Source: a virus
Length of the DNA: 64,000 bases
Reading direction: 5' to 3' (one strand)
Virus record (IMG/VR): IMGVR_UViG_3300021091_004015
Coordinates: 1-64,000 of that record
Shown: positions 4,445 to 62,456 of the stretch, in pieces
Position numbering within the stretch: the stretch's first letter is position 1
How the letters are laid out: the number at the start of each line of letters is the position of its first letter
Notes under the pieces: generated by a model
Databases searched by the model: none
Told to the model about the DNA's origin: nothing
The model's input: the letters and a program-made list of their open reading frames with translations, nothing else
Translations under genes and position numbers: made by a program

Positions 4445-5293
4445 CTACGCCAAACCTGATTCTTTATCGATTAGATTATTAACTTTAACAGTTCCTTTGG
4501 CCCAAGCTCCGCCAAGACTACTAGTCCTACTATCTTTAGCAATTTTTAACAATTCCTTGTCAGATTTACCTTCTTTAACGGCACTTTCTATTTTTTGAGC
4601 AAATTTCTTAAAGAAACCAGGACCGTTCCAACATGCGTATGACATATGTAATAATAAACCTTTGTTACCCTCGATACGTTTTTTTGTTTCAGAGTCTTTA
4701 ACAAAATTAGACATATTTCGTTGGTAAGATTTAAACATTATTTTTGATGCCAAATTTTTAAGTTTTTCTTGTAAATCACCCCCTGTGTATCCCCATTTCC
4801 ATTTTTTACAAAATTCGGACATACCTAATTTCTTTTTTTCAGAATCTATAATTCTAAAAAATTCCTCACCTTCAGGTTTAACGGTTTCAATAGCCCCCGC
4901 TTTTCTATCTAATCCAAACATAGTTTCACCTGATTTATCAAACATTGCCGTATATGGGTGAGATTTACATTGCCAATGGTTCCAATACCCACCCTCAAAG
5001 TTATCAATAACTTTTTTAGTGACATCCATCCAATTAGACTCAACACTACCTGTGGCATTTTTTATTATCTTATCTTCATCTTTCTTATCTTCATCTTTCT
5101 TATCTTCATCTTTCTTATCTTCATCTTTCTTATCTTCAGTACTATCTTTTGAAGATGTCGAACTAAACCCTGAAGATAACTGTTTTAAAAAATCATTAAC
5201 GTCAATACCTAGAATTGAGCCCACCTCATTTAATTGATACATTTGTTTTATTTTATTTTTTTCTGATTCAGATATTAAAATTTTCTTATACAT
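4445..5293 (-). CDS. Virion-associated muramidase (GH108-like) with N-terminal tag
   Basis: Residues 4-23 (ILISESEKNKIKQMYQLNE) match the tag shared by many late proteins here. Residues 54-75 are a tandem acidic/basic linker of repeated KDEDK units. The catalytic region begins at FEGGYWNHW, with Glu100 as the likely acid. GETMFGLDRKAGA follows, then a helical C-terminal half, as in GH108 N-acetylmuramidases, which would cleave peptidoglycan. The 282-aa gene diverges from the 5332 gene across a palindromic TATTTAT element. There is no signal peptide, so packaging in the virion or holin-dependent release is likely. Confidence 0.75.
   Translation of the reverse strand: MYKKILISESEKNKIKQMYQLNEVGSILGIDVNDFLKQLSSGFSSTSSKDSTEDKKDEDKKDEDKKDEDKKDEDKIIKNATGSVESNWMDVTKKVIDNFEGGYWNHWQCKSHPYTAMFDKSGETMFGLDRKAGAIETVKPEGEEFFRIIDSEKKKLGMSEFCKKWKWGYTGGDLQEKLKNLASKIMFKSYQRNMSNFVKDSETKKRIEGNKGLLLHMSYACWNGPGFFKKFAQKIESAVKEGKSDKELLKIAKDSRTSSLGGAWAKGTVKVNNLIDKESGLA
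5069..5137. repeat. 15-base tandem repeat inside the muramidase gene
   Basis: About 4.5 copies of a unit read on the plus strand as tcttcatctttctta encode the KDEDK linker. It is an in-frame coding microsatellite, so copy-number changes would alter linker length without breaking the gene. Confidence 0.9.
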
Positions 5294-5310
5294 GGTAAAT
5301 TAATTTTTTT

Positions 5311-5324
5311 AATAAATATTTATT
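5311..5324. promoter_or_regulatory. Palindromic divergent class B promoter
   Basis: AATAAATATTTATT is a perfect 14-base palindrome. It gives the TATTTAT element on both strands between the muramidase start (5293, minus) and the protease-like gene start (5332, plus). One element could therefore serve both directions. The promoter role is inferred from its recurrence. Confidence 0.6.
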
Positions 5325-5331
5325 AAATAAG

Positions 5332-5721: not shown

Positions 5722-5758
5722 ACTAAGTAAACCCAATTTTTAGGTAATTAACATCTAA

Positions 5759-6184: not shown

Positions 6185-6217
6185 AATTTATATTTTTTTA
6201 AAACAATTATAGGGGTA

Positions 6218-6493: not shown

Positions 6494-6568
6494 AATAATA
6501 AATATAAACACTTGTTTTGGGTTGAAAAGTTCTTTTTAATAATTTATATTTTGTAAAAAAAAAGAAAT

Positions 6569-6793: not shown

Positions 6794-6891
6794 AAAATCA
6801 TGTATAGAACATCAATAAAGACTATTTTTTTATAAACATGGTATATTTATAAAACACTATCACTCTCATCACGAGAGCCTCTATATATAAA

Positions 6892-6937: not shown

Positions 6938-6941
6938 TCTT

Positions 6942-7541: not shown

Positions 7542-7561
7542 AAAAAAAATAGTATATTTGT

Positions 7562-7860: not shown

Positions 7861-7879
7861 AGGCTTTCATCCAAACATT

Positions 7880-8871: not shown

Positions 8872-9060
8872 ATGAAAGTGTATATAACTGAAAACAAAGA
8901 AGTGTACGAAAAAATTAGACAGATTTTATCGGGGATTGCATTTTTTAGACACACGGATACGGAGTATTTCATTAAAGTAAGAAAAAACCCAGTGATAGAA
9001 AATTTTTTAGAACTGGGTTTAATTTCTGAATACAATGAAGTGAGTGAAGTTACTCCTTAG
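8872..9060 (+). CDS. Hypothetical protein (62 aa)
   Basis: It starts 1 base after the phosphoesterase stop (MKVYITENKEV). A small mixed alpha/beta protein with no recognised family. Its 3' end overlaps the convergent ADP-ribosyltransferase-like gene by 11 bases. Confidence 0.55.
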   Translation: MKVYITENKEVYEKIRQILSGIAFFRHTDTEYFIKVRKNPVIENFLELGLISEYNEVSEVTP

Positions 9061-9478
9061 TTTTACGTATTGAAATTATCTTAACACCTTTACCTTTATT
9101 TTTTAAGGTAACTTCATTTTCATGTGGATATAAAACGTTGTTATAGACTGTTTCACCAACATCAACTAGTTTTTTAGGTGCTAATACGGTTATTATGTAG
9201 GATTGGTCTCCGACACCATCGGCATATGAATGATTATTTAATAAATCCTTTTTACTTGTTGAGTAATGGGACCCCAACTCGTTAGTGTTAATATCTTCTT
9301 TACTTTCGACATGTATTATCCTGAATAATCTTATTTCTTCAGGTAAATTTTTTACACTATGTATAATATCTTCTAAAACTTCTTTAGCCTCATCTTCATC
9401 ATAATTCATATCCCGTTTTAATAAAGAAAGATATTTTTCTTTATTAATTTTTTCGGTAAGCAACTGAAGTAGTTTCAT
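9050..9478 (-). CDS. Probable mono-ADP-ribosyltransferase with virion-targeting N terminus
   Basis: The first 20 residues (LLQLLTEKINKEKYLSLL) resemble the late-protein tag. After a helical stretch the protein shows the three R-S-E class landmarks in order. These are an Arg on a beta strand (RLFRIIHV), an STS strand (GSHYSTSKK) and an ExE element (HENEVTL) near the C terminus, separated by typical strands (YIITVLAP). This class moves ADP-ribose from NAD to proteins; T4 Alt is packaged and modifies host RNA polymerase. A class B element (9483-9489) lies 5 bases upstream. The ART call rests on short motifs only. Confidence 0.55.
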   Translation of the reverse strand: MKLLQLLTEKINKEKYLSLLKRDMNYDEDEAKEVLEDIIHSVKNLPEEIRLFRIIHVESKEDINTNELGSHYSTSKKDLLNNHSYADGVGDQSYIITVLAPKKLVDVGETVYNNVLYPHENEVTLKNKGKGVKIISIRKTKE

Positions 9479-9728: not shown

Positions 9729-10781
9729 ATGAGCAATAGTCAACTTAAAATATTAATGACCGAAGAACAATTCAATCAACTATTGAATGAGGATAGGGGG
9801 GTCAACAGAGCGTCTATATCGTATAGTAATATTATATTAGAAAAAATTGAACCTTATATTTTAAACTCATTAAAGTCTAAAAAATCTGAAACGATTAAAT
9901 TTAAAATCCCATTGAATGATTTATCGAGCGTGTGGGAGAATGATTTAGAAGGTTATTCCGAATTCCCCATTTTTGAGATTAGAGTAGAGTTGAATATATC
10001 AATCCAAACGAAGAATCAAATGGATTACCTTTTTAGTACTGGTGGAGGGGCTGAACAAATTAACGATAATAGTACTGAAGATTCTTTTGTATCATTACCA
10101 CCAAGAGGTTTACCTAAAAATGTGAAAGAAATGATTGATTCTAGTTTAAGTGCAAAATTTAGTTTTGATGTTTTCTTAAGGAAAGATGTTGGTGAAAATG
10201 ATAAACAAGATTTAATATACGATTTAAGGGATACAATTTTACACGAAACAAATCACATGTTAGAATTTTTCAAAAAACATGAGAATAGTTCTGGTAATAT
10301 TGACGTAGCATTAAGTTACGCAGGTAAAAGGAATTTTAATGTGCCTAATCACATATATGAAATATGGAGAGAATTTCAAACAATGGTGTATTTCTCGGAA
10401 CCATATGAAATGAGGGCTATGGTACAGGAAATGTATAGTGTTAGATTAAGAAAACCGTTTGAAGCGTTTAAACAACATAGATATTATAAAGCGGCAGAAA
10501 TAATGGAAAATTTTAACGCTGATAAAATGTTTGATGTTCTTATCCAAAGAATAGAAGATTACAATCCTGATTACCTAATACCAATATTAACTAACTTATG
10601 GAAATGGTTTATTTCTGAATATTTTGCAATGTTAGAAGCTCAAGGATTCACACCTAACAAAAAGTTAGAAAAATCAGTACATATTTTGGATATTATGAAA
10701 TTATTACAACCAAGGATTAATAAAGCTGGTTCAAGACTAAAAAGAAAATTTAATACCTTATATTCCATATCACCTGATTGA
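9729..10781 (+). CDS. Tagged zinc metalloprotease-like virion protein
   Basis: The 350-aa protein begins with the tag ILMTEEQFNQLLNED. HETNH at residues 172-176 is an HExxH zinc site, and the later YEMRAMVQEMYS could give the third ligand. The rest is helical. The gene follows a class B element (9713-9719). The overall plan resembles the 18186 protein, though overall similarity is low. A packaged protease could act on a host protein during entry or on the prohead. Confidence 0.65.
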   Translation: MSNSQLKILMTEEQFNQLLNEDRGVNRASISYSNIILEKIEPYILNSLKSKKSETIKFKIPLNDLSSVWENDLEGYSEFPIFEIRVELNISIQTKNQMDYLFSTGGGAEQINDNSTEDSFVSLPPRGLPKNVKEMIDSSLSAKFSFDVFLRKDVGENDKQDLIYDLRDTILHETNHMLEFFKKHENSSGNIDVALSYAGKRNFNVPNHIYEIWREFQTMVYFSEPYEMRAMVQEMYSVRLRKPFEAFKQHRYYKAAEIMENFNADKMFDVLIQRIEDYNPDYLIPILTNLWKWFISEYFAMLEAQGFTPNKKLEKSVHILDIMKLLQPRINKAGSRLKRKFNTLYSISPD

Positions 10782-10911: not shown

Positions 10912-12774
10912 ATGAGTAAAATTATTGGTATTGACTTAGGTACTACAAATTCATGTGTTGCAGTCATGGAAGGTAGTGAACCTGTAGTAATTACGAACAG
11001 TGAAGGGAAAAGAACCACACCTTCAATTGTAGGATTTATTAATGGTGGTGAAAGAAAGATTGGGGACCCTGCTAAAAGACAGTCGGTAATTAATCCTGAT
11101 AAAACTGTACACTCAATCAAAAGATTTATGGGGTCTAGTTTTGACGAAACTAAAAGTGAAGTCAAAAGAGTACCTTATAAAGTTGTTAGTGAAAAAAACA
11201 ACCCTAAAGTTTCTATTGATAATAGAAAATACACCCCACAAGAAATTTCGGCAATGATTTTACAAAAGATGAAACAAACTGCCGAAGATTACTTGGGGGA
11301 AACTGTTACTGAAGCGGTTATCACAGTACCAGCATATTTTAATGATGCCCAAAGACAAGCAACTAAAGAAGCAGGTGAGATTGCGGGGTTAAATGTTAGA
11401 CGAATAATTAATGAACCTACGGCCGCTGCGTTGGCGTATGGTCTTGATAAAAAGTCTAAGGATATGAAAATTGTGGTATTTGACTGTGGTGGAGGAACTC
11501 ACGATGTTTCTATTTTAGATTTAGGTGACGGTGTGTTTGAAGTACTATCAACAGATGGAGATACCCATCTTGGGGGTGATGATTTTGACCAAGTAATTAT
11601 TGATTGGTTAGTAAGTGAATTTAAAGATGAAAATGGGTTAGACCTTAAACAAGATTCAATGGCCTTACAGAGACTTCGAGAATCTGCGGAAAAGGCTAAA
11701 ATTGAGTTATCATCCACAAATAGTACTGAAATAAATCTACCGTACATTATGCCTGTTGACGGTATTCCAAAACACTTGGTTAGAACTTTAACAAAATCTA
11801 AATTTGAACAACTTATAGATGGTTTGATTTCTAGAACTATCAATCCTTGTAAAACGGCATTAAAAAATGCGGGTCTAAAGGTTAGTGACATAGATGAGAT
11901 TATTTTAGTTGGTGGGTCAACACGTATTCCTGCAATTCAGGAGGCGGTTAAAAAATTCTTCAGTAAAGAACCATCTAAAGGGGTTAACCCTGATGAAGTT
12001 GTTGCACTTGGGGCGGCAATTCAGGGAGGAGTTTTAGGCGGAGATGTTAAAGATGTTCTATTGTTAGATGTTACACCTCTATCATTAGGTATCGAAACCA
12101 TGGGAGGTGTGTATACAAAATTAATTGAGTCTAACACGACAATCCCAACTAAAAAATCACAGGTATTCTCAACTGCAGTTGACAACCAACCATCTGTTGA
12201 GATTCACGTATTACAGGGTGAAAGATTAATGGCTAAAGATAACCGAACTATCGGAAGATTCCATTTAGACGGTATCCCACCATCAATGAGAGGGGTTCCT
12301 CAAATCGAAGTAACATTTGATATAGACGCTAACGGTATAATTAATGTATCAGCGTTGGATAAGGGGACAAACAAACAACAAACAATTCGTATTGAAGCTT
12401 CATCAGGTTTATCAAAAGATGAGATTGAGAATATGAAACGTGAAGCGGAGTTAAATGCGGAATCGGATAAAAAGGCAAAAGAAGAAGCAGAGATTTTAAA
12501 CGGGGCTGATAGTACGATATTTAATGTTGAAAAGACACTAAAAGACCTTGATGATAAAATCTCAGAAGAACAAAAATCGGAAATAGTGGAATCACTTGAA
12601 AAACTAAAAGAGGCTCATAAAAATAAAGATATTGAGTCTATCAAATCAACGACAGATGAAGTGAACACTAAATTTCAAAAAATTACACAAGACTTATATA
12701 GTCAGGTAAATGACCAAATGGGGGACATTAATTTTGATGGGTCAGATGTGGAATTTGAGGAAGTTGGTAAATAA
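10912..12774 (+). CDS. dnaK: Chaperone DnaK (Hsp70), full length
   Basis: The 620-aa protein starts [18 protein letters not shown], has the nucleotide-binding domain ([24 protein letters not shown]) and a linker near [19 protein letters not shown]. The beta substrate-binding domain has [16 protein letters not shown], and a helical lid ends in the acidic FEEVGK. All ATPase landmarks are present. The usual DLGGGTFDVS reads [10 protein letters not shown], an unusual pair of changes in the phosphate loop. No DnaJ or GrpE is seen nearby, so host co-chaperones are probably used. It is a rare cargo for a phage and likely helps fold phage proteins. Confidence 0.96.
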
Positions 12775-14451: not shown

Positions 14452-14964
14452 TTATTTTTCTTTGACTAATACCAAACATCTTTTCAGATACTCTTTAGCT
14501 CTTGGAGCGGTATCTGAATGTTTAAGAACCTTCTCGATATCCTTAACTAAATCTTCTCCGTGTTCGTTTTCCTTATATAACTCAACTACCTTGTCCATAG
14601 CTTTGTTACATTTACCAGAGGTCTCATCAAAATAATTTTTATTTCTAAATTTATTAATGTGATTCATTAGATTATATGCCAAATGTTGACCACCGTCATC
14701 CACATCGTGAAGTCTTAATGTTCTTAACATATCTAAAGTATCGACCATACCATTTATCCCACCGTCTCTTTTTAACATAGATGTTGTATAATTTCTAAAG
14801 TTGTCTGAAGGACCAACTATTTCATCTAACGGTAATGAATTTTCAGGAACACAATTTAATTTTTCCTCAGTTGTTTCACTTTTTGGTTCCATACTATTTT
14901 CTTCGTTTATGTATTTTTTAATAATACTTCGAAGTTTAGCCTCATGTATCAAGTATTTTTTCAT
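14452..14964 (-). CDS. Tagged virion protein of unknown function (170 aa)
   Basis: It begins with YLIHEAKLRSIIKKYINEE, a clear example of the shared N-terminal signature. The remainder is helical with a Glu-rich linker (MEPKSETTEEKL). A class B element (14979-14985) lies 14 bases upstream. No catalytic motif is seen. It is probably carried in the head. Confidence 0.65.
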   Translation of the reverse strand: MKKYLIHEAKLRSIIKKYINEENSMEPKSETTEEKLNCVPENSLPLDEIVGPSDNFRNYTTSMLKRDGGINGMVDTLDMLRTLRLHDVDDGGQHLAYNLMNHINKFRNKNYFDETSGKCNKAMDKVVELYKENEHGEDLVKDIEKVLKHSDTAPRAKEYLKRCLVLVKEK

Positions 14965-15958: not shown

Positions 15959-16585
15959 ATGAAAAACATCGACTTAATAATTTCAAAAGTTCTCAATGAA
16001 TATAAAAATCCTCCTATGAGGTTAACTGAAGATGTAAAAGTTTCAGATAATATGAGATATCACCTTAACAATAATTTGAGATTAAGTGAAAATGTAAACA
16101 GAATTTATTCTGATAAGTTTTTTAATTTAATCAACGAAGCAAGAAAATTATATTTTAATAATAAACTCTCGTTGAATGAAAATGATATTTGGATTGTTGA
16201 GTCTGATTTAGGTAAAAAAGTGATTCTTGAAAGTGGTGAAAAAGTTTGGTTAAATGTCCCAATTTATGAAGATATCCACGGTTCTGTGGAGCGCACTTAT
16301 TTTGAAGAAAGTGGTTTTTTAAATGAAGCCGAATACCAAGGAAGAAAAGTTCAATTAGGTAAAATAATGCAAGGAGATATTAAAAAGTTCAAAGTGTACG
16401 TTAAAAACGACAAAGGAAAAGTTGTAAAAGTAAACTTTGGTTTTGGTGGAAAATCTGCTAAAGGTAAACGAATGACTATTAAGAAAAATAACCCACAAAG
16501 AAGAAAATCTTTTAGAGCTAGACACAATTGTGCAAATCCAGGACCAAGATGGAAACCAAGATATTGGGCATGTAGAACGTGGTAA
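15959..16585 (+). CDS. Tagged structural protein with Arg-rich C-terminal domain (208 aa)
   Basis: I placed the start at ATG 15959 (MKNIDLIISKVLNEYKNP). The N terminus repeats tag-like blocks (MRLTEDV, LRLSENV, LSLNEND). The C terminus is a compact basic domain with RRKSFRARHNC, PGPRW and RYWACRTW. I recall this pattern from virion proteins of marine T4-like phages, without a proven role. A class B element is at 15936-15942. Confidence 0.65.
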   Translation: MKNIDLIISKVLNEYKNPPMRLTEDVKVSDNMRYHLNNNLRLSENVNRIYSDKFFNLINEARKLYFNNKLSLNENDIWIVESDLGKKVILESGEKVWLNVPIYEDIHGSVERTYFEESGFLNEAEYQGRKVQLGKIMQGDIKKFKVYVKNDKGKVVKVNFGFGGKSAKGKRMTIKKNNPQRRKSFRARHNCANPGPRWKPRYWACRTW

Positions 16586-18185: not shown

Positions 18186-19166
18186 ATGTTAACGAAAAAA
18201 GAAATAGATAGAGTAAACGACATACTAAAAAATAGAATATTCAAGTATTCAAAAGGATTATTTGATTACGATTTACCAGGTGAAAATGATTTCGATTTTA
18301 AATTCCAAATTTTAGGTTATAAACAAATGATTAGTGTTGGGGAATATTATGACTATCTTCGTGTATCGGTAACACTTTTAAATTTTAGAGATATATTAAG
18401 TCAAAAAGTTTTTCTAAGATTGGGTAAACAAGGTGATTTCTTAAACAAATATTTTAAAGAAAATATGTATTTTTTTAGAAATAATTTACGTGAGGAGATT
18501 AGAGCTATAATGTCTATGTTTGAACCTAATGTACTAATAACAATTGAGGATGTAAGTATTGATACGGGTAATGAAAAAGAATCATTACAAGAACAAAAAA
18601 TGACTAGAGAGGCTATAAGAAATGTTGTAAAAGATATTACCTATATTTTAAAAAGTGGTAGAAAAGGTGAGTTTACTTTACCTGATAATGATGAAGGTGT
18701 TGGATATAAGTTTAATAGATTTCCCGTAGAATTTACACTTGAACTATCAGTTGAAGTGGATAATAACATAGATAGGTTTCAAATAAATGCCGAATATTCA
18801 AAGAGTGATGATGTGATTGAAATGATAGTTAGGTATAATCCATCTAAATTAAAAACTCAGATGTACGACATTATTGGAGAATTAAATGAAACAATTGCTC
18901 ATGAGTTAGAACATAGTTTACAGGGATACCGTAACGAATTCCCAACTAAAAAAGGTAGAAAAGTTACAAATCCTTTAAAGTATTATTTACAACCTCACGA
19001 AATTCCTGCGCAAATTGCGGGATTTAAACGACTATCAAGAATTCAAAAAGTGCCATTAGAAGATGTAATTAGACAATGGTTTGACACTCACACTGACATT
19101 CACAATTTAAATAATAACCAACAAGAAAAAGTAATTCAAACACTATTAGATTATAGTAAATCTTAA
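18186..19166 (+). CDS. Zinc metalloprotease-like protein (326 aa)
   Basis: HELEH at residues 239-243 is an HExxH site. HEIPAQIAGF, about 30 residues later, could supply a third ligand. The first 200 residues are mixed alpha/beta. The N terminus (MLTKKEIDRVNDILKNR) is a weak match to the late tag. The domain plan resembles the 9729 protein. A class B element is at 18175-18181. Its 3' end overlaps the convergent 19163 gene by 4 bases. Confidence 0.65.
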   Translation: MLTKKEIDRVNDILKNRIFKYSKGLFDYDLPGENDFDFKFQILGYKQMISVGEYYDYLRVSVTLLNFRDILSQKVFLRLGKQGDFLNKYFKENMYFFRNNLREEIRAIMSMFEPNVLITIEDVSIDTGNEKESLQEQKMTREAIRNVVKDITYILKSGRKGEFTLPDNDEGVGYKFNRFPVEFTLELSVEVDNNIDRFQINAEYSKSDDVIEMIVRYNPSKLKTQMYDIIGELNETIAHELEHSLQGYRNEFPTKKGRKVTNPLKYYLQPHEIPAQIAGFKRLSRIQKVPLEDVIRQWFDTHTDIHNLNNNQQEKVIQTLLDYSKS

Positions 19167-19798
19167 TTTTTACTTTTAAATCTTTTTACAATTTTGTTAA
19201 TTAATTGTTTTATAATAATACCTGAAACAGTTAATAAACCAAACGAAGAAATCCTCACCACTAATTCGTTGATATCTTGGTCAGTAAATGTCATATTTTT
19301 TGAAACGTTATATAATATACCCAATAAAGGAATTATAAACGTGTAACTTAACATATTAGTCATTTTATGAAATTGTATTCCTAAACTACTAACAAAATCT
19401 AAAAATACTGCTAAGAATGAATCCGTTTTACGTAAAACTTGTTTTAACACATCAGATAGACCCTCCTCTTTAATTTTATTAAAAATTTTATATATCATAT
19501 CTTTATTATCGATATAATAAGATGCGATAACACCCGTCAGAATTAAACTAATTTGTAAATCGTTTATCTCAGGAAATTTACCACGTACAAAATCTTCAAC
19601 AGGACCTACAAAACCACCAATACTAGCACCCCAAGTTATTAAGAATTTTAGGTTCATACCAATCTGTTTTGAAGAATCCTCAATAATCTCTTTCACTCTA
19701 CTGTAGTTTTTTTTAATAATATCAACAATATTACCCCCACTAGCTTCAAGTAGGATTCTTCTTTTTTGGGATTCACTTATTAAAATACTAATACTCAT
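19163..19798 (-). CDS. Tagged membrane protein (211 aa)
   Basis: The tag ISILISESQKRRILLEAS is followed by several hydrophobic stretches (LKFLITWGASIGGFVG, ISLILTGVIASYYI, YTFIIPLLGILYNV and LLTVSGIIIKQLI) and a basic C terminus. It may be a packaged membrane-active protein. A class B element (19804-19810) lies 5 bases before ATG. Confidence 0.65.
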   Translation of the reverse strand: MSISILISESQKRRILLEASGGNIVDIIKKNYSRVKEIIEDSSKQIGMNLKFLITWGASIGGFVGPVEDFVRGKFPEINDLQISLILTGVIASYYIDNKDMIYKIFNKIKEEGLSDVLKQVLRKTDSFLAVFLDFVSSLGIQFHKMTNMLSYTFIIPLLGILYNVSKNMTFTDQDINELVVRISSFGLLTVSGIIIKQLINKIVKRFKSKN

Positions 19799-20479: not shown

Positions 20480-21130
20480 ATGAACGCATATTTTTTCAAA
20501 ATGTCAAAAGAGGAAAGAGATAATATCCTTGACCAACATAAAGAACCTTATAATGGTTACGTTATGCAAAATCAAACATCATCTAATGAACAACCATTAT
20601 ATGTCCAAGATTTTGCAAATGATAAACAAGGTATTAATATTGATATCCACGGTAATGCAAAACCATATACCAATTTTAACATTAATGAATCTCACTCAGG
20701 TTTAGATATGATTGGTGATGGGGATGTTGATTTGAAAAATGGTACAGTTGACTTTGAAGATGTTTTATCACATGAAGATGATTACGATTTTGGGTTTGAT
20801 TATCCTGAGACAGACTCATATGAAAATAATGTAACAGTTGGAGATGATGATGACTCCATCTATGTTAGTATTGGGGAAATGAATGATATGATTGGAGGTG
20901 GTGACGATGATTTAAAACATGGTACTTTTGGATTTGAGGAAAGGGATGATGATAAGTTATTTGATGATGACGATTTGTTTGATGAAGAAATTTATGAAAC
21001 AGAAGGTGACGAATTTTCAGATGTTGATGATTTAGGAATTGACCATGATTTAGACCAAGGAGAGATAAATTCAATCACCGAAAGTATCGACAAAACATTA
21101 GATATGTTTAGAAGATTTAAAAAATACTAA
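20480..21130 (+). CDS. Acidic protein of unknown function (216 aa)
   Basis: The N terminus (MSKEERDNILDQHKEPYNGY) is followed by a disordered, Asp/Glu-rich tail with repeated MIGDGD, MIGGGDDD and FDDDDLFDEE blocks. It ends in a short helix (ITESIDKTLDMFRRFKKY). Such acidity suits a scaffold, core or DNA-mimic role, none of it proven. A class B element is at 20458-20464. Confidence 0.6.
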   Translation: MNAYFFKMSKEERDNILDQHKEPYNGYVMQNQTSSNEQPLYVQDFANDKQGINIDIHGNAKPYTNFNINESHSGLDMIGDGDVDLKNGTVDFEDVLSHEDDYDFGFDYPETDSYENNVTVGDDDDSIYVSIGEMNDMIGGGDDDLKHGTFGFEERDDDKLFDDDDLFDEEIYETEGDEFSDVDDLGIDHDLDQGEINSITESIDKTLDMFRRFKKY

Positions 21131-22276: not shown

Positions 22277-23842
22277 ATGAAAAATCAAAACCATACCCAA
22301 GTTATTGCAATGTCCGCAAATCTCGGATATCTTTTTACAAACAAAGGAGTTTCTAAAGTATCCTATGAATCAAATGATTTAAACGGTAGAAATTTTGTCC
22401 CTTACACCTACGAACATTTAAATGTCGCTAGCAAAATATTACAGGAAAACATAAACTTCAAATATAAAATAGGTTCACTCTCGTTAACCGAATACACATC
22501 TGAACCAAGAAGGTTTTTAAATCTATTAATGGAAACTTTTGAAGTTAATAATGGTATCGCCATAATTAAAGAATGGGAAGAAAAATTTGGTAATAAATTA
22601 TTATTAATTAATGAATCTACGGATAATTTACTAATTGAGCAAAGAGTAAACAATTCTTGGGAAGGGATTTATCAAATCATATCAGAAGGTATTTTAGGTA
22701 ATATTTGGAGCGGTGTTAAAAAGGTGGGAAGTGCCGTAGCCACAGGAGTTTCAAATGCCGCTGGATGGGTTAAAGATAAGGCAGTTGCTGCTAAAGATTG
22801 GGTAGTCGACCAAGGTAAACAAATTAAGGATAAAGGATTTCTTGGATGGGCGGCCGATAAAGCAAAGAATGTTTGGAATTATGTTAAAGATAAAATAGCC
22901 GCGGCTTGGAATTGTGTAAAGGCTGGTTTAGAATGTATAATGGAAGGTATCCGAAGTCTTGTTACAAGTGCTGCAGGTACCGCGGTTTTAACAGGATTAT
23001 CTTTTGTTCCTGTTGTAGGTCAAGTTACAAATGCGGTTATATTCGGAGCATTATTATTATATGATTTATATCAGATGTCTCAGGGTAAAGGTGATTGGAT
23101 TAATATTATTGTAGACTCGGTGGCATTAATATTACCAATGGCAAGTAAATTACTAAAAAGTGCGTTGGTTGGTGTAAAATCGTTCAGTCAACTCGGTGCG
23201 GCGGCAGCTTCTAAAGGGGGTATTTTAGCAAAAGTAGTAAACGCGTTTAGGTCAGGAATAAGTACATTGGGTGGTTATGTCACAAAGGCGGCAACTTGGT
23301 TAGGTGAAAAGTTAGGTATGACAACATTGGCTAATTGGGGGAAAAACGCAACTTCAAAATTGGCGAGTTTGAGTGATGAATTAGCCGCGGGGGCGAAAGG
23401 TGTAAAAGGAACCGCTAAAACTGCTGCAACTACAGGAGCTAAGAAAACGGTGACCGCGGGGGCTAAGAAAACCGTAACCGCAAACGCAAAGAACGTAGCG
23501 GCATCAAAAATTGGGGCTAAAGCATCTCAAGAATCAATTAAAAAAGCAACACCATTACAACAATTAAAAACAATATGGGCAAAGAACCCTAAAACACCAA
23601 TTCCTCCAACAGGTACAATTGTTAAGGCTTCAGGTAAGGCGTTTTTACTTACCACTGGTATTTGTGCAGCGTTAGGGTTAGATGGTTTTACATGTTCTTC
23701 TAAAGTGGAGAATGGTCAAGTAACTCCTGAACAATTAAAAGTTGCGGAAGAAAAAGCACAAATGGAATTAGCTCAACAATTAACTACAAACCCTGAAGGT
23801 ACAAGTTTAGGTATTAGTGATGCTGATATCGCAGCACTATAA
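22277..23842 (+). CDS. Large Ala-rich internal virion protein candidate (521 aa)
   Basis: Residues 1-135 are a soluble head with tag-like blocks (LLMETF, LLINES, IISEG). From about residue 140 the protein is Ala/Gly/Lys-rich with amphipathic helices. A long hydrophobic hairpin around 235-275 (TGLSFVPVVGQVTNAVIFGA) is followed by VDSVALILPMASK, reminiscent of pre-toxin or pore-forming segments. It could insert in the host membrane during DNA ejection, like the internal proteins of podoviruses. Function is inferred from composition only. Confidence 0.6.
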   Translation: MKNQNHTQVIAMSANLGYLFTNKGVSKVSYESNDLNGRNFVPYTYEHLNVASKILQENINFKYKIGSLSLTEYTSEPRRFLNLLMETFEVNNGIAIIKEWEEKFGNKLLLINESTDNLLIEQRVNNSWEGIYQIISEGILGNIWSGVKKVGSAVATGVSNAAGWVKDKAVAAKDWVVDQGKQIKDKGFLGWAADKAKNVWNYVKDKIAAAWNCVKAGLECIMEGIRSLVTSAAGTAVLTGLSFVPVVGQVTNAVIFGALLLYDLYQMSQGKGDWINIIVDSVALILPMASKLLKSALVGVKSFSQLGAAAASKGGILAKVVNAFRSGISTLGGYVTKAATWLGEKLGMTTLANWGKNATSKLASLSDELAAGAKGVKGTAKTAATTGAKKTVTAGAKKTVTANAKNVAASKIGAKASQESIKKATPLQQLKTIWAKNPKTPIPPTGTIVKASGKAFLLTTGICAALGLDGFTCSSKVENGQVTPEQLKVAEEKAQMELAQQLTTNPEGTSLGISDADIAAL

Positions 23843-23872: not shown

Positions 23873-25378
23873 ATGAAAAATAACAATTTAATATTCGAGG
23901 AAATAAAAAGAGCCCAATTACTGATGGGGTATTCTTCTAAAAGTACTTTAACAGAAAACGAAATTAGAATCCAAAATAAACATAAAAAGTCTTTAGTAGA
24001 GAACTATAATAGATTAGTTTTGTCTGAAGGGGCTGGAGATAAAATTTTAAAATCTTTACTGGGTGGTGCTGATGACGCGGCAAGAGTGGCATTAAACAGT
24101 GCTGATGACGCGGCTAAAGTGGCGATAAAAACACAATTAGATGATGTTGTTAGAAGTGCTGGAGGTAAGATTGGTAAATTCTCGAGTGCTGATGACATAT
24201 TAAAACATTTAAAAAAAGGTGGTGTTCTTGACGATGTTGCAAGACAAGAACTTAAGATGGGTTTAATGAAAAGTCCGAATACCGCTAAAAATGTTAAAAA
24301 CGCATTAGCGGCTGACATGTTAAAAAACGCCGATAATATAAAAAACTTTAATAAAATTATTGCGGCAGGAAAAGGTGAAGCAGGGATTTCTAAATTATTA
24401 CAGAAAAAAGGTATTCCTGCCGACATTGCGGATGATATTGCAAGAAAACATGTATCCAAATCGGCAAATAAAGTTGCTGCAGGTTCAGCCGCAGGTAGTG
24501 GAGTTCAAAGTACTGTTAGTAAAGTGGGTAGTAAAACAAGTAAAAACGTTGGAAAAACAACTAAAACCGCTGGAAAAGGAGGTGTTGGTAGAGGTAAAAA
24601 TGTAAAAAAACCAACAAAACCAAGAGTAAAAAAACGAAGCTACACACCAAAAGGAGAAACAAATTGGCAAAAGTTTAAAAAGGCCATGGTAGGTTTTAGT
24701 AGAACTAAAATATTTAAATACCTTTTAATTGCGGGTGGTCTTTATTTAGTATATAAATGGTGGACGGATGAAGGTTCAGCACCTTTCCCTGATTGTATTG
24801 GTAAAAATATTCCTCAAGAAGATTTTGAGCAAATGGTTAATAGTGGGGACGGGTCAGTTATTATCTCTGACACAGGAGTTGATGCTATTGATAGAGCAGG
24901 TGGTGGTAAATTTTATGACGATAAGAAATTTGTGACAGGTAATGGTAGATATTCAGGAACTTGGTCTGAAGTTCCAGGTGTAGGTGTTGTTATCTCAATT
25001 GAAGGTCAAGAATACACTATGTCATGTGAAGGAGTTGTGGATGAAGAAGATGGTGGAGGAACAGGTGGTGGTGACGGAACAGGTGGCGGAACAGGTGGTG
25101 GAGGTGGATATACACCTTGTTCAGGATTCCCTCTTAAACAAGGTTGTAAATCAAGTGATGTTAGAAAAGTACAAGAATGTTTAGGTATTGGAGCCGATGG
25201 TCAATTAGGTCCTAAAACCGCAAGTGCTATTAAAGCGAAAGGTTATAGTATGCCATTAAGTCAATCTGATTATGATAAAATTGTTGCTAATTGTGGAGGT
25301 AGTTCATCCTCATCAACTACAACAACAACTACTGTATACACAGGAGGAGAGTCGGGCTCAATTGAGAATTTTGTTTAA
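23873..25378 (+). CDS. Internal virion protein with peptidoglycan-binding domain (501 aa)
   Basis: The tag region (LIFEEIKRAQLLMGYSSKS, then LTENE, SLVENY and LVLSEG) precedes Ala/Asp-rich helices with DDAAR/DDAAK repeats. A very basic stretch, one membrane helix (IFKYLLIAGGLYLVYKWW) and a small beta domain follow. After a Gly/Thr linker comes a PG_binding_1-type domain (CKSSDVRKVQECLGIGADG, QLGPKTASAIK). It probably reaches the cell wall during entry. It sits between two proteins of similar style. Confidence 0.68.
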   Translation: MKNNNLIFEEIKRAQLLMGYSSKSTLTENEIRIQNKHKKSLVENYNRLVLSEGAGDKILKSLLGGADDAARVALNSADDAAKVAIKTQLDDVVRSAGGKIGKFSSADDILKHLKKGGVLDDVARQELKMGLMKSPNTAKNVKNALAADMLKNADNIKNFNKIIAAGKGEAGISKLLQKKGIPADIADDIARKHVSKSANKVAAGSAAGSGVQSTVSKVGSKTSKNVGKTTKTAGKGGVGRGKNVKKPTKPRVKKRSYTPKGETNWQKFKKAMVGFSRTKIFKYLLIAGGLYLVYKWWTDEGSAPFPDCIGKNIPQEDFEQMVNSGDGSVIISDTGVDAIDRAGGGKFYDDKKFVTGNGRYSGTWSEVPGVGVVISIEGQEYTMSCEGVVDEEDGGGTGGGDGTGGGTGGGGGYTPCSGFPLKQGCKSSDVRKVQECLGIGADGQLGPKTASAIKAKGYSMPLSQSDYDKIVANCGGSSSSSTTTTTTVYTGGESGSIENFV

Positions 25379-39121: not shown

Positions 39122-39321
39122 AAAAGAAGTTTAAGACTATAACAATTAATATTGAGTTGTCTAGCACTGATAATTTAGAAGAAATAACTTCTAAAATGAT
39201 ACAAAATTTATCAGATTGTGCGGTGAAAACTGTAAAATCAGAAAAAAAATGGTTTAGTAAAAAAGAACCAATAAAAATTAATTCAATCAGTGTTAGACAG
39301 TTCCCTTTAAATATTAATTAG
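39118..39321 (+). CDS. Hypothetical protein (67 aa)
   Basis: A small beta-alpha protein coupled by ATGA to the phosphoesterase. Its 3' end overlaps the convergent tagged gene by 8 bases. No family recognised. Confidence 0.55.
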   Translation: MKKKFKTITINIELSSTDNLEEITSKMIQNLSDCAVKTVKSEKKWFSKKEPIKINSISVRQFPLNIN

Positions 39322-53290: not shown

Positions 53291-53320
53291 AAAAAAGGGG
53301 GATTATTCATCCCCTTTTTT
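53289..53320. terminator. Bidirectional terminator
   Basis: AAAAGGGGGAT-TATTC-ATCCCCTTTT is flanked by A and T runs. It lies between the converging peptidase and Clp genes and overlaps the Clp stop. Confidence 0.9.
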
Positions 53321-55345
53321 CTTTCTACCCTTTTTAACAGGTACTGTCTTTATTTTGATTTCTTTTTCTTCTACGTATAGAATATATTTTGTTTGTTCAT
53401 TTATATTACCTTTTAATACTTCTTCGGAAATAAAGTCCTCAATCTTATCTTGTATTGCTCTTTTAATAGGTCTTGCCCCGTAAGTTTCATCAAACCCAAC
53501 TTCAGAGATTAAATCTAAAATAGTATCATCATAAGTAATCTGATATTTCAGATTAACCAACCTTTCAAATAATTTATCAAGTTCCAATTTAACTATCGAT
53601 TTAACTTCATCCTTTTTAAGAGAATTAAAGATAACTATTTCATCAATCCTGTTTAAGAATTCAGGTGCAAAAAACTTCTGTAATTCCTTCTTCAACAAGT
53701 CTCGTTTATATTCCTCCTCAATATATGTATTGTTATTACTTTTAAATCCGACACCAGAACCAAAATCCTGTAATTTTTTAACTCCCAAATTAGATGTCAT
53801 AATGATGACACAATTTTTAAAATTAATCTTTCTACCAAGACCATCAGTAATATGACCATCATCTAAAACTTGTAATAGTGATGAAAAAATATCTTTATTC
53901 GCCTTTTCAATCTCATCAAATAAAATAACAGAGTACGGTTTATTTTTAACTTGTTCAGTTAGTTGTCCACCTTCATCATAACCTACATATCCTGGAGGTG
54001 CCCCGATTAATCTTGAAATCGTATGTTTCTCTTGAAACTCCGACATGTCAACTCGAATTAAATTTTCTTCACTACCAAATATTTCTTTTGCTAATTGTTT
54101 TGCCAAATATGTTTTACCAACACCTGTGGACCCTAAGAAAATAAAAGAACCTATCGGTTTATTAGGGTCTTTAATACCTAATCTATTTCTTCTGATTGAT
54201 TTTGCAATTTTAGAAACCGCTTCAGATTGACCAATAACTTTATTACCTAAACTCTCTTCTAATTTAGTCAATGATTGAGTCTCATCAGAATTTAATTTTG
54301 AAATCGGAATTTTAGTCATGTTTGAAACTACTTCATAAACTAATTCGAGACTAACTTCTCGTTTTTGGTTTTGTAATTCAGATTCAAATTTTTTCTTTTC
54401 GGAGTCTAATTTATCTAAAATTCGTCTTTCTTTATCTCTTAAATTTGCAGCCTCTTCGTAGTTTTGTTTTTTTACAACTTCAATTTTTTCTAATTTAATA
54501 TCCTGAGCTTGTAATTTTAATTTTTCAATAATTTCAGGCATTTTTATATCAACTTGACTTCTTGCGCCAACCTCATCTATAATATCAAACGCTTTATCTG
54601 GAAATTCCCTATCTGTGATATACCGTTCAGCCAAATCAACACATAAGTTAAGTATTTCATCAGTATATGAGACTTTATGGTATGTCTCGTACTTGTCTTT
54701 TGCATGTTTTAAAATCTCTAAAGTTTCTTGTTTTGTTGCAGAATCAACAATTACTTTTTGAAATCTCCTTTCTAATGCTCCGTCCTTCTCGAAATTTTTT
54801 CGATATTCATCAAGTGTTGTGGCACCAATACATTGTATTTCACCTCTCGCTAATGCGGGTTTAAATATATTTGACGCATCCAAGGAACCTGAAGAATTAC
54901 CAGCACCAACTATTGTATGAATTTCATCTATGAATACAATAATATTTGAATTGTTTTGAAGTTCATCAATTATTACTTTCATTCTTTCCTCAAACTGACC
55001 TCGGTATTTTGTACCTGCAACAATTGAGGTCATATCTAATGATACAATTCTTTTATCAGTTAAGTTTCTTGGACATTCCCCATTGAATATCTTAATAGCT
55101 AATCCTTCGGCAATTGCAGTTTTACCACAACCTGGTTCGCCAATAATGATTGGGTTATTCTTTTTTCTTCTTGAAAGAATTTGTGCAATTCTTGTTATCT
55201 CACGTTCTCTACCAATTACAGGGTCTAATTTACCTTCTTCCGCTAACTTTATTAAATCTCTACTAAAATTGTCCAAAACAGGTGTCGGGGAATTCTCGTT
55301 ACCTTTACCTTTGTTTTGGTTACTACCATCCTTAGATTCTATCAT
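53303..55345 (-). CDS. ClpC-like AAA+ unfoldase lacking the N domain (680 aa)
   Basis: Two AAA+ modules are complete: GEPGCGKT with IVFIDEIHT, then GSTGVGKT with ILFDEIEKA and APPGYVGYDEGGQ. Between them lies a short coiled region with the UvrB/C-like NYEEAANLRDKERRI typical of ClpC. The usual adaptor-binding N domain of about 140 residues is missing, replaced by a short Gly/Asn-rich stretch. SGVGFKSNN near residue 525-530 retains the VGF tripeptide that docks ClpC onto ClpP. It could therefore commandeer host ClpP. The C terminus is Lys-rich (VPVKKGRKKKGDE). Confidence 0.88.
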   Translation of the reverse strand: MIESKDGSNQNKGKGNENSPTPVLDNFSRDLIKLAEEGKLDPVIGREREITRIAQILSRRKKNNPIIIGEPGCGKTAIAEGLAIKIFNGECPRNLTDKRIVSLDMTSIVAGTKYRGQFEERMKVIIDELQNNSNIIVFIDEIHTIVGAGNSSGSLDASNIFKPALARGEIQCIGATTLDEYRKNFEKDGALERRFQKVIVDSATKQETLEILKHAKDKYETYHKVSYTDEILNLCVDLAERYITDREFPDKAFDIIDEVGARSQVDIKMPEIIEKLKLQAQDIKLEKIEVVKKQNYEEAANLRDKERRILDKLDSEKKKFESELQNQKREVSLELVYEVVSNMTKIPISKLNSDETQSLTKLEESLGNKVIGQSEAVSKIAKSIRRNRLGIKDPNKPIGSFIFLGSTGVGKTYLAKQLAKEIFGSEENLIRVDMSEFQEKHTISRLIGAPPGYVGYDEGGQLTEQVKNKPYSVILFDEIEKANKDIFSSLLQVLDDGHITDGLGRKINFKNCVIIMTSNLGVKKLQDFGSGVGFKSNNNTYIEEEYKRDLLKKELQKFFAPEFLNRIDEIVIFNSLKKDEVKSIVKLELDKLFERLVNLKYQITYDDTILDLISEVGFDETYGARPIKRAIQDKIEDFISEEVLKGNINEQTKYILYVEEKEIKIKTVPVKKGRKKKGDE

Positions 55346-59728: not shown

Positions 59729-60135
59729 GTTATTTAATTTATGTAAATGAATTAGGTGCAAATTATAAAGGGGAAACAACTTATGAATTCATTTTCTCCG
59801 ATAATTTGGAAAATGTATGGGGAGATTCTTGGGAATCAAAACCATCGAATGGTTACCCATCTCCACCCGATTTAGATTACATAGAAAAAGTTGGAGTTTT
59901 GAAGACAGATAAGACAACATTATCAGTTATTCAAAACTCTGATTACTTTTCAATGGTTGACGCAATTGATAGAGTTATAGCGTTGGCGTGGGAAGATGAA
60001 AACGAAACAACCAATTTTGACTTAGTTAAAAGATTGGTATTTAGTTTTGGTCAAACTGAAGACTCCGTAAAAGATAAATTATATGAACGAGATTTCGTTC
60101 TTGAATTTGAGAAGAAAGTGGTTTATGAAAAATAA
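59725..60135 (+). CDS. Virion protein candidate (136 aa)
   Basis: It begins SYLIYVNELGANYKGETTYE and has VWGDSWESKPSNGYPSPP, a pattern I recall among structural genes of related large phages. It overlaps the previous stop (ATGA) and the next start by 11 bases. Function unknown. Confidence 0.6.
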   Translation: MSYLIYVNELGANYKGETTYEFIFSDNLENVWGDSWESKPSNGYPSPPDLDYIEKVGVLKTDKTTLSVIQNSDYFSMVDAIDRVIALAWEDENETTNFDLVKRLVFSFGQTEDSVKDKLYERDFVLEFEKKVVYEK

Positions 60136-61111
60136 TAAAAAAATACTATCTTTGTTAAACCATGGGTTTAAAGGTTCGTTACTTAATACGCTAAACGAAG
60201 CTCAAATCAATTCAATGTATAGTAGATTAGTTGAAAATAAAAAAGAAACTAAAGAACAACAAATTGTAAACACTCAAACAATGGTTTTTGATTCTTCTAA
60301 AGAAGACCAAAAGGCTAAATTAAATCAAATGTTAAAAGACCCTTCTAAATTACAAGGTCAAAACATAGAAGTTAAAGAAGATGAAGAATCAGATATTAAT
60401 TGGGGATTAACAGGTCATGACCAAGAACCAATTCAAAAAGGACCTACAGGTGACGGGGACCCAAATTCAATCCAAGAGAAAGAATTAATGGAAAAATTCG
60501 TATCTAAAAAACAACAAAAATATTTTTTTGCGAAATGTGGTGATGGAAAAACAAAAGAAGAAAAAAAATGGTGTAAAATGGCTGAAGAATTTGCGGAAAA
60601 AACAAATTTTAAAAAACTACCTAAAACTAAAAAGAAAGAAACCAAAGAAGAATTCACCATGAAAAATTATTTGGATAAAGTGGGTAGTGCTTATGCAAAT
60701 AACATGAAAGGACAATTAAGTAAAATGGCAAAAGAAAGTATCAATAAAAAAGAGTTAGAAAAAGGTATTATGTCTTTGGTTGAAAAACATATTACACCTA
60801 AAATGAGTAAAAGGGATTTACTAAATTTGGTTTTTGAACAAGGAACTAAAGAAAAGGAGAGAACTAAGGAAAAAGAAAAAACTAAAAGCCCTGAACGTGA
60901 TAATCCGTATGCTCCTAAACCTGGACCAAAGAAAAGTCCAAAAGCGGGAGATACCAAGATTGCACCTCCAATACCTAAAACACCTACAAAACCTGGTAAA
61001 CCTGATACAAATACCCCATATAACCCTAAAGTTAAACCCGCACCAAAAGCTGACAAGGGAAAACTACCTAATTGGTTGACATTTGATGCTATTGGAATTA
61101 ATCTAAAATAA
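60125..61111 (+). CDS. Tagged Lys-rich virion protein (328 aa)
   Basis: The preferred start is MKNNKKILSLLNHGFKGSLL; the tag-like SLLNTLNEAQINSMYSRLVE follows. A Lys-rich middle contains SKKQQKYFFAKCGDGKTKEE and WCKMAEEFA. The C-terminal third is a Lys/Pro/Thr-rich disordered stretch (KPGPKKSPKAGDTKIAPPIP). It is probably head-internal and DNA-associated. It overlaps its upstream neighbour. Confidence 0.62.
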   Translation: MKNNKKILSLLNHGFKGSLLNTLNEAQINSMYSRLVENKKETKEQQIVNTQTMVFDSSKEDQKAKLNQMLKDPSKLQGQNIEVKEDEESDINWGLTGHDQEPIQKGPTGDGDPNSIQEKELMEKFVSKKQQKYFFAKCGDGKTKEEKKWCKMAEEFAEKTNFKKLPKTKKKETKEEFTMKNYLDKVGSAYANNMKGQLSKMAKESINKKELEKGIMSLVEKHITPKMSKRDLLNLVFEQGTKEKERTKEKEKTKSPERDNPYAPKPGPKKSPKAGDTKIAPPIPKTPTKPGKPDTNTPYNPKVKPAPKADKGKLPNWLTFDAIGINLK

Positions 61112-61112
61112 G

Positions 61113-62456
61113 ATGAGTGTTAATTATAAAATGGAAAAAATATTAAGAGCAAAAACTAATTTAGAAAAAAAATTAGTTAGAGAAGGTTTAACTTATAATG
61201 AGAAATCATTATTAAATGAAATCAAAAAAAGTTTAACTGAGGCACCCATAGATTATGAAGGTCCTGAAAGAATGGGTCAGGATGTTGAGAGAAAAATAAC
61301 ACAGAGAGAGACTCCATTTCATGGTCACCCCGCAATACCTCAAGAACAAAGAGATTTTATCGAGGTGATTGCATCAAAAAGATTTAAAGACTCAGTTGAT
61401 AAAGTAAGAAGATTTTTAGGTAATACCCAACCTCTACAAGGACCAAACTCTTTTATGAACTTGATGATGATGGGTATGCAATCATTACAACAAATTTCAT
61501 CTATTGAATCAAGAAATAAACAAAGACTTGAAGAATTAGCGGTTGAGTTGGTTAAAAAAGAAATGGGGATTCCTGAAGGAGCTTTACAATTCGACGCCGA
61601 ATTAGTTAGTGGACCTATGAGTGCCGCTCAAGGGATGCAAACCCAATCACAAAATCCTTCTGAAGATGAGATTAAAGATGCTTTTAAAGAAGGTGAAGAA
61701 CATACCGAAGATTTATTAAACTTTGTAGATGAGTTCGAAAAATTCAATTTAGAGAAAGCAAAAAGACGATTTATAAATTCTTTAATACAAGGTGCGGCGT
61801 TCAAGGGTGGACACATGTATGTCTTGGCGGCTGATGAAATAAACAATATTGACCCAAGATTATTACAGATGTATGGTGTTAACCAATCATTAATGGAACA
61901 TCTATATTGGGTTTTCCCTGATATGGAAAATATGGCGGGTTCGGGAGGTGGACAATTAGGTCAAAGTGAAATTGATGATGAGACCGACCCACCAACAGTA
62001 AAGGCTAGGGCAGGTACTTTTCCGTTATTAATTCATGAATTGGTAAAAGGTGTTTATGAAGTATTTGGTACTCACGGATTACCTGATGACCCAAGACAAC
62101 AAGAAATGGTTATGGGTTCTGAAGATACATTACCTGCTGAGATTTGGGATTCAAGATTAGGACCTATTTTTTGGGAAAAATTTGTTGCGACATACCCGAT
62201 AGAATTATTCGAGGATGATATGAAACACATCCAACATTATCTATTTATGAGATTTTCTAAATTAGATGCGAATGAATTCTTTAGAGTTGCCAAACTTATA
62301 TTACAAGGAGACCCTAAAGGACAACAATTCATTCAAAGGATGGTTGATGAAATAGTTTCAGAATTAAAAAAACAAGAATATGAAAGAAGTATGAATCAAT
62401 ATGACGATGACGATGATGATTATGACGATATCGACCTTTCACAATTAGGATTATAA
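61113..62456 (+). CDS. Tagged late protein upstream of terminase (447 aa)
   Basis: The N terminus has KILRAKTNLEKKLVREG and LLNEIKKSLTEAP, tag-like with possible cleavage after LTE. A globular helical body (FMNLMMMGMQSLQQISSIE, LPAEIWDSRLGPIFWEKFV) ends in an acidic tail (YDDDDDDYDDIDLSQLGL). Its place just before terminase and its strong terminator suggest a head-assembly role. Family not recognised. Confidence 0.62.
   Translation: MSVNYKMEKILRAKTNLEKKLVREGLTYNEKSLLNEIKKSLTEAPIDYEGPERMGQDVERKITQRETPFHGHPAIPQEQRDFIEVIASKRFKDSVDKVRRFLGNTQPLQGPNSFMNLMMMGMQSLQQISSIESRNKQRLEELAVELVKKEMGIPEGALQFDAELVSGPMSAAQGMQTQSQNPSEDEIKDAFKEGEEHTEDLLNFVDEFEKFNLEKAKRRFINSLIQGAAFKGGHMYVLAADEINNIDPRLLQMYGVNQSLMEHLYWVFPDMENMAGSGGGQLGQSEIDDETDPPTVKARAGTFPLLIHELVKGVYEVFGTHGLPDDPRQQEMVMGSEDTLPAEIWDSRLGPIFWEKFVATYPIELFEDDMKHIQHYLFMRFSKLDANEFFRVAKLILQGDPKGQQFIQRMVDEIVSELKKQEYERSMNQYDDDDDDYDDIDLSQLGL

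Follow-up and report, generated by a model that had tools for sequence, protein, structure and literature searches.

Internal proteins of bacteriophage T4 are made with N-terminal propeptides of 10 to 19 residues, called capsid targeting sequences (PMC9026906). These sequences are found on IPI, IPII, IPIII and Alt and are removed by gp21 (PMC9026906, PMC3012670), which cuts after (L/I)xE, and the authors suggest that they may let T4-like phages load various proteins into the capsid (PMC9026906). We analysed bases 1-64000 of the IMG/VR virus record IMGVR_UViG_3300021091_004015, which is 102,672 bases long in full, and this stretch of 64,000 bases is called the window. In the window, in the rest of the record and in related phages, many dissimilar proteins begin with one of a few recurring N-terminal segments, called tags here. 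A tag is a short segment, usually basic, that could form an amphipathic helix and that ends in [ILV]xE. Judged from sequence, the tags are quite probably capsid-targeting propeptides of the T4 kind, greatly expanded.

Two other described systems are close. DarB, which is part of the virion anti-restriction system of P1, has an N-terminal signal that is longer than 9 and shorter than 30 residues, and its first 30 residues suffice to send a reporter to the head (PMC9024508). The likeness is a short N-terminal signal that would direct a protein to the head; the difference is that no BLAST consensus was reported among the Dar N-termini (PMC9024508), whereas a strong consensus is common to many proteins here. 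In SPN3US and phiKZ, several head proteins have N-terminal propeptides, which a divergent relative of gp21 cleaves behind a short motif whose last residue is Glu; the head proteins are candidates for ejection into the host, and a virion RNA polymerase lies in the head (PMC5694885). Those propeptides are often longer than 100 residues and are not described as shared in the parts of that paper available, whereas the tags here are short, repeated and seemingly interchangeable. No description of a shared, exchangeable tag system was found among the listed open-licence PMC papers on capsid targeting, shared N-termini and packaged sigma factors, and the tag sequences searched as text turned up one unrelated paper.

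T4 remains the closest comparison. Both have a (here putative) N-terminal propeptide on unrelated proteins that ends in (L/I)xE, a gp21-family protease and a gp23-type capsid protein. The cargo of T4 includes an ADP-ribosyltransferase (ART), Alt, and the candidate cargo here may include one, as the predicted fold of one protein bears a weak resemblance to ARTs. The two differ in number and kind. T4 has four such internal proteins, against 10 proteins that match strict tag patterns in this record and 30, 27 and 29 in the related G001, G002 and G020. At least four tag classes occur here, often with two [IL]xE sites. Peptidoglycan (PG)-binding proteins, VanY, lysozyme, PAP2 and a sigma factor bear tags here, and these kinds are not listed among the T4 internal proteins in the available text. 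In the T4 record, IPII and IPIII start MKTYQEFIAE then A, Alt starts MELITELFDE, and gp23 has FLTE then A; by eye, the class B N-terminus VLITESQFITLFED resembles that of Alt. Across the whole T4 proteome the N-terminal excess of [ILV]xE is slight at most (32 vs 19.9 in residues 6-10), so the value of T4 as a control lies mainly in those of its proteins that are known to be processed.

The tags fall into four classes with these rough consensus sequences: class A, the commonest, MKK[IV][IV]RLTESDLxRIVKRVIxE; class B, MKIIITESQYKxLxE; class C, MKKLxxLxEEEKxRILxxHxxATxxxYLxE; and class D, MNLNExIxRIKxLMGLxE. A fifth, looser form is like the second half of class A placed behind the start codon, for example MNINDIIKKVISEE. 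Tags range from 12 to about 32 residues, two [IL]xE sites are frequent, and class A is basic and amphipathic by eye. The strict class patterns match five proteins inside the window and five beyond it. When tag-like N-termini recognised by eye or through tagged homologs are added, the counts are 11 in the window and 18 in the record. The initial annotation had put the number at a dozen or more, which holds for the whole record and falls just short for the window; the seven N-termini it quoted were all found in the sequence. The tagged and tag-like proteins of the window are as follows, with lengths in amino acids (aa) and homologs taken from the set of sequences fetched for comparison, in which L numbers denote loci and G numbers contigs or genomes.

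34772-35455, minus strand: class A protein of 227 aa with two hydrophobic segments; N-terminus RLTESDLMRIVKRVISE, tag MKKVIRLTESDLMRIVKRVISE then N; no homolog of the body in the fetched set.
35497-35859, minus strand: class A protein of 120 aa counted from the first ATG, the listed open reading frame (ORF) beginning upstream of it at a TTG; N-terminus RLTESELTELIRKLVNE, tag MKKKVRLTESELTELIRKLVNE then S; no homolog of the body in the fetched set.
4445-5293, minus strand: protein of 282 aa; N-terminus ILISESEKNKIKQMYQLNE, tag MYKKILISESEKNKIKQMYQLNE then V; its homologs bear other tag types (L100:8141 D-like, L128:15498 E-like).
19163-19798, minus strand: class B protein of 211 aa with one hydrophobic segment; N-terminus ILISESQKRRILLEAS, tag MSISILISESQKRRILLE then A; homologs L121:6438 and L130:7196 are likewise class B.
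39314-39913, minus strand: class B protein of 199 aa with one hydrophobic segment; N-terminus VLITESQFITLFED, tag MKVLITESQFITLFED.
9050-9478, minus strand: protein of 142 aa with the tag-like start MKLLQLLTE and a weakly ART-like predicted fold.
9729-10781, plus strand: class B-like protein of 350 aa with an HETNH motif and no Pfam match; N-terminus ILMTEEQFNQLLNED, tag MSNSQLKILMTEEQFNQLLNE then D; its homolog L120:18843 bears a class B tag.
14452-14964, minus strand: class A-like protein of 170 aa; N-terminus LIHEAKLRSIIKKYINEE, tag MKKYLIHEAKLRSIIKKYINE then E; its homolog L130:3708 starts MKKYRLNESDINRIIGKVLSE then Q.
15959-16585, plus strand: basic internal-type protein; N-terminal MKNIDLIISKVLNE, with a C-terminal module that ends RWKPRYWACRTW.
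23873-25378, plus strand: class D protein of 501 aa, start MKNNNLIFEEIKRAQLLMG; its body clusters with the class C protein L001:11188-11643, which has a weak PG_binding_1 match.
25397-27277, plus strand: protein of 626 aa, tag-like by inspection alone, MKNIRFENRLRKMLSE then SSGREHVKRMLNE then A; no homolog in the fetched set.

The protein at 20480-21130 was considered as a tag bearer and left out of the count, since its N-terminus is conserved along with its body.

These N-termini are far more frequent than expected by chance. The core [ILV].[ILM][STN]E begins within residues 1-10 in 12 of the 127 proteins of the record, against 0.8 expected from the interior rate (Poisson 7e-11), although at least two of the 12 (8872 and 91017) are probably not tags. 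The proteins were mostly taken from the longest ORFs that start with ATG and reach 60 aa, and overlaps were resolved by length. Six long uncultured relatives were tested besides the record (G001, G002, G003, G005, G006 and G008), and an excess was found in G001 (27 vs 1.9), G002 (18 vs 1.4), G003 (10 vs 0.8), G008 (13 vs 0.3) and, more weakly, G006 (5 vs 0.4). The strict class patterns, which were composed after the data had been seen, match 10/127 proteins in the record, 30/360 in G001, 27/308 in G002, 16/227 in G003, 1/94 in G005, 4/107 in G006, 16/132 in G008, 9/193 in G023 and 29/256 in G020. They match none of the 1,272 pseudo-N-termini cut from protein interiors and none of the 1,459 proteins from loci chosen by an unrelated pattern. 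At loci chosen by class A, 173 of the 1,312 proteins match A and 48 match another class (B to D); around the capsid gene of relatives, 20 of 995 match a class pattern.

Named phages gave smaller signals. Flavobacterium phage immuto (host Flavobacterium sp. LMO8), a relative by its capsid protein, scores 8/213 with strict patterns, 0 with those of classes A to D, and shows no excess with the core motif (1 vs 1.1); it has other repeated N-termini, of the type FDLKKFLVENKLTxNSxLLxE in four proteins and MKKQILSEQFxRMQxLAGIITES in two. In Microcystis phage Mel-JY01 (L425, record 60276-62718), three neighbouring proteins start MIKLxSLxxExISDRVWHxT, a small tag-like set in a cyanobacterial phage. A tblastn search of the class A tag against named phages gave no match at E up to 1, the query being too short to inform.

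The tags end sharply at a conserved Glu. A DNA pattern that spans only LTESDLxRIVKR, the middle of class A, and leaves the terminal Glu unqueried matched at least 120 viral contig stretches; 80 of these are listed, and the counts from pattern scans are lower bounds. The same pattern reversed had 0 matches. Among the matches listed, 137 of 142 viral ones lie at most 12 residues from the farthest ATG. In the same listed matches, all 117 distinct proteins have a Glu four residues past the pattern (residue 22 in the common form), and 114 of them have [ILV]xE there, with I or L in 112. The information per column in these matches is 4.2 bits at the terminal Glu, 1.4 at the next residue and 0.06-0.6 beyond, the residue after the Glu being Q in 42, E in 18, N in 16 and S in 16 of the 117. 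Across classes, [ILV]xE is found within 22 residues after the tag core in 38/38 class A, 28/33 class B, 17/17 class C and 12/12 class D tags, where the cores used stop short of the motif itself. None of 500 permutations reached the observed counts, and interior windows gave 10 to 29%. The contigs from the pattern scans overlap in part with the relatives (G001, for example), and the two sets are not fully independent.

In class A the third codon position is freer (entropy 1.09 bits) than the second (0.51 bits), and therefore the constraint acts on the protein. The genome contigs of GTDB release 220 (257 billion bases) contain four stretches that match the class A pattern. Two are on one Prochlorococcus-labelled contig with several tag-like N-termini, one is internal in a Caldiserica bin, and one is at an N-terminus in a Prevotellaceae bin. 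The protein in the Prevotellaceae bin contig (L419) starts MKQLIILTESDLHNIVKRVIDE with a basic stretch behind it, in surroundings that are otherwise bacterial-looking.

Behind the tags the proteins differ. The fetched set contains 334 proteins tagged with classes A to D, and 330 of their bodies fall into 215 clusters, a rough count, as the clusters were built with blastp at 1e-3 and single linkage and some are linked via one common domain. By class, the body clusters number 144 for A, 37 for B, 23 for C and 21 for D. The initial annotation's central observation, a shared N-terminal signature on otherwise differing proteins, is borne out by these numbers. Seven body clusters have more than one tag class, and one of them, joined by a peptidoglycan-binding-type domain, has all four. 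Within a metalloprotease-like family (HELAHQYQF), the tag is of class A in L258 and of class B in L106, and L100 and L402 have the looser form. In contig G020, a 526-aa protein with one B tag (L404:8285-9865) fuses homologs of three window proteins: 19163-19798 corresponds to its first domain, 39314-39913 to its middle domain and 9050-9478 to its C-terminal domain. In the window these three, two membrane-type and one ART-like, are separate genes, each with its own tag or tag-like start. Tandem arrays of tagged genes are frequent, for example L099:14152-18341 and L129:10251-17788. Because proteins with a common body domain can bear different classes, the tag classes, of which there are at least four, seem to be equivalent in function, and therefore cargo genes could move freely between tags.

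Pfam was used to look for domains in 142 proteins, which were 133 of the 215 cluster representatives and 9 others, 138 of them tagged by pattern and 4 not. Among the 25 most frequent of the 56 families matched, PG_binding_1 was found in 5 proteins, Phage_lysozyme in 2 and DUF6576 in 2, and VanY, LysM, Hydrolase_2, SET, PAP2, kinase-like and sigma-70 matches were found once each, others being weaker. Ten of these proteins were checked singly; six had a clear Pfam match, and every match started behind the tag, the VanY match at residue 71 of L122:8988. One tagged sigma factor was found: L238:2357-2935 (MKIIITESQYSRIVDIKE...) has a class B tag, sigma-70 region 2 from residue 38 and region 4 at E 1.8e-15, which suggests a packaged sigma factor. 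The PHROGs matched by tagged proteins are mostly endolysin or tape measure families, among the 25 most frequent of 102. An enrichment of hydrophobic proteins was also considered and is not significant, with hydrophobic segments in 28/305 tagged and 71/1,109 untagged proteins (P=0.10).

For the tagged proteins of the window itself, Pfam gave weak matches below the curated cut-off and nothing stronger. Of the body labels proposed earlier from sequence, muramidase and zinc protease had no Pfam match, and ADP-ribosyltransferase gained weak support from a predicted fold. The protein labelled muramidase (4445-5293) had no PDB match either, and its structural model, with a predicted local distance difference test (pLDDT) score of 64 and no meaningful structural matches, is too poor to judge; the label is unconfirmed. 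The model of 9050-9478 is better, with pLDDT 85.8 and low confidence in residues 1-8, which are most of the tag-like start. ART chains were prominent among the top Foldseek rows as weak matches (best E 0.13, none at or below 0.001), and the best VIA-align match had Z 6.2 over 81 residues at 2.8 A, below the tool's caution level of 8. An ART-like profile run against PDB sequences gave one chance hit and nothing further. Another protein with an ART-like C-terminus, L394:6174-9293 in contig G023, is 1,039 aa long and resembles a polyprotein: segments such as EFLDKVVDRLLKE recur in it along with SLNE-type sites, and these internal repeats are tag-like.

The head module begins at the end of the window, and most of it lies in the part of the record beyond.

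62532-64000, plus strand, continuing past the window end to 64307: terminase-like ORF by eye, start of the head module.
64508, outside the window: portal (Portal_T4, 1e-78).
67816-68547, outside the window: gp21-family prohead protease (Pfam Peptidase_S77, here S77, 9.7e-23; T4 chain 5jbl, 2.9e-14).
68940, outside the window: scaffold-like acidic protein, by eye.
70717-72597, outside the window: gp23-type capsid protein (Gp23, 1e-64; T4 gp23 chains, 1e-24).
73147, 74188, 74646, 75950, 77107, 77568 and 77886, outside the window: tagged or tag-like proteins.

The S77 protein is the prohead protease that the initial annotation had proposed to look for. The relatives of the capsid protein include phage immuto (39.5% identity), phage Mel-JY01, Rhodothermus phage RM378 and many uncultured phages.

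Two proteins of this phage point to a link between the [IL]xE motif and head processing. Where the propeptide of the capsid protein is expected to end, 81 sequences can be compared: 80 have LINE then A, and the remaining one, immuto, has IVSE then A; these are mostly close relatives and not independent, and L013 begins too late to cover the site. The basic internal-type protein at 15959-16585 has nine [IL]xE sites vs 1.9 expected, the top excess among the proteins of at least 150 aa in the record, and has FLNE then A before an 85-aa basic C-terminal module (25 K+R, 3 D+E). Its homologs bear A, B and other tags. When proteins of at least 150 aa are ranked by [IL]xE excess, a member of its family comes first in six of seven genomes, with G006 excepted and the excess slight in G008. 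In 11 of 12 homologs [LI]xE then A or G stands directly before the conserved basic module, and the sole one without that site, L354, is from a control locus. One more protein of the window, on the plus strand at 22277-23842 (521 aa), has two hydrophobic segments, an [IL]xE excess of 9 vs 4.0, QIISE then G before the hydrophobic part and no N-terminal tag by pattern; it is possible cargo.

Sequence comparison establishes that the tags exist, are modular and end in a protease motif, and an expanded capsid-targeting system accounts for this evidence better than do the rivals weighed below. By analogy with T4, P1 and SPN3US, the tagged proteins would be cut, packaged and injected. In such a system, as in T4, the tag would bind the scaffold core during prohead assembly and bring its protein inside. 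The S77 protease at 67816-68547 would then cut after the tag-ending Glu, as expected at the capsid site LINE then A. The freed proteins would remain with the DNA and enter the host on infection, where, judging from their domains, they may breach the cell wall, sit in the membrane, alter proteins of the host or divert transcription.

The initial annotation had read the signature as an expanded form of the T4 targeting sequence that loads an effector set into the head. The unrelated bodies, the [ILV]xE ending, the S77 protease, the gp23-type capsid protein and the T4 precedent speak for that reading, as does the junction of Glu then Ala common to the capsid protein and the basic internal-type protein. 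Several observations weigh against it. Class A tags are mostly followed by Q, E, N or S and not by the invariant A of the capsid site, and class A has by eye no likeness to MKTYQEFIAE of T4. The core-motif excess is not seen in relative G005 (0 vs 0.3), and the cultured capsid-protein relatives RM378 and Mel-JY01 lack a general N-terminal excess of [ILV]xE. Control phages often have the protease as well: among class A contigs of at least 69 kb, 13 of 22 contain S77, against 8 of 20 among control contigs (Fisher P=0.35). The class A set is all 23 listed contigs of that size except G001, in which S77 was already known, and the control set is all those listed of at least 75 kb. Nor did contigs of at least 120 kb differ (11/13 class A vs 7/11 control, P=0.36). 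Co-occurrence of tag and protease was meant as a decisive test, and it fails to discriminate because the control pattern too selects large T4-like phages. The nine class A contigs in which S77 was not found also gave no gp23 and no gp20. They include G023, which is 160 kb long and has class A and B tags, and seven shorter contigs. A capsid match in G023 (E 3.5e-4) was rejected as unlike a capsid protein, and Gp23 was not found there. G020, also without S77, is a relative, and the run at the end of its contig is collinear with the part of the record that begins at 83491, some 8 kb away from the head genes. Of the 14 records fetched by the capsid gene, 13 have S77; the exception is G004, whose contig ends 1.3 kb from the capsid gene.

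Three other explanations were weighed. The tag could be a permanent amphipathic helix that binds membrane or DNA, places proteins at the host membrane or nucleoid and is never cut. Class A is basic and amphipathic by eye and some tagged proteins have hydrophobic segments, at the rates given above, yet a permanent helix would leave the invariant terminal Glu and the sharp end of conservation unexplained, along with the single [ILV]xE ending in four classes and the replacement of one class by another on related bodies. Two window tags (9729 and 39314) have a negative net charge over the first 24 residues, and we consider this explanation unlikely. A different processing or sorting signal, served by a non-S77 protease of host or phage or leading to another compartment such as a phage nucleus-like body, would suit the failure to find S77 in G023 despite its class A and B tags, and also the residue after the tag, which is unlike that at the capsid site. 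Against it, the [IL]xE ending is the gp21 motif, and the class A contigs in which gp23 was looked for and found, G017 and G018, both have S77; such a signal seems quite improbable. Least credible of all is that what the 5' ends have in common is an element of DNA or RNA, a regulatory or recombination site at gene starts that is translated incidentally. The tandem arrays are what gene cassettes would produce, but the freer third codon position and the stop of the constraint at the Glu codon point to a protein, and a DNA role alongside the protein role is possible.

A few further features of the record were seen. Two small cysteine/lysine-rich proteins lie beyond the window, at record 75950-76573 (L001:12950-13573; GPWVNICRKDKDGKHPPCGR) and 77107-77571 (L001:14107-14571; GHGVQVCKGKIKGLDGKKR), behind PINE then A or a looser tag. 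Small cysteine/lysine-rich modules are common in marine phages. Three ORFs of the window look by eye like host-type genes that are unusual for a phage: pyruvate phosphate dikinase-like (523-2934), DnaK-like (10912-12774) and ClpA/C-like (53303-55345). At the end of the record, outside the window (99840-102635), several minus-strand ORFs have VLVGV-type repeats and are possibly the reverse of a repeat gene on the opposite strand.

Returning to the capsid-targeting reading, we lean towards a large T4-like phage lineage with an open cargo system, in which tens of unrelated proteins per phage would carry one of at least four interchangeable and dissimilar tags, be trimmed in the prohead and be injected with the DNA. 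Peptidoglycan enzymes, zinc proteases and ADP-ribosyltransferases would be among the cargo, as would a sigma factor. Compared with T4 the logic would be the same, but the codes would be several and exchangeable, and the cargo would be much larger in number and more diverse. If so, swapping cargo while the address codes stay fixed would provide an injected arsenal that evolves quickly and is active before phage gene expression, and the tagged sigma factor, found in one instance, suggests that a transcription factor may be injected as well. The system would also offer an easy test of how cargo is selected by the prohead core. Reading 10 to 30 residues from the N-terminus would suffice to predict which phage proteins of unknown function are injected, and hundreds of unnamed genes in large uncultured phages would become ranked candidates for host-takeover and anti-defence proteins.

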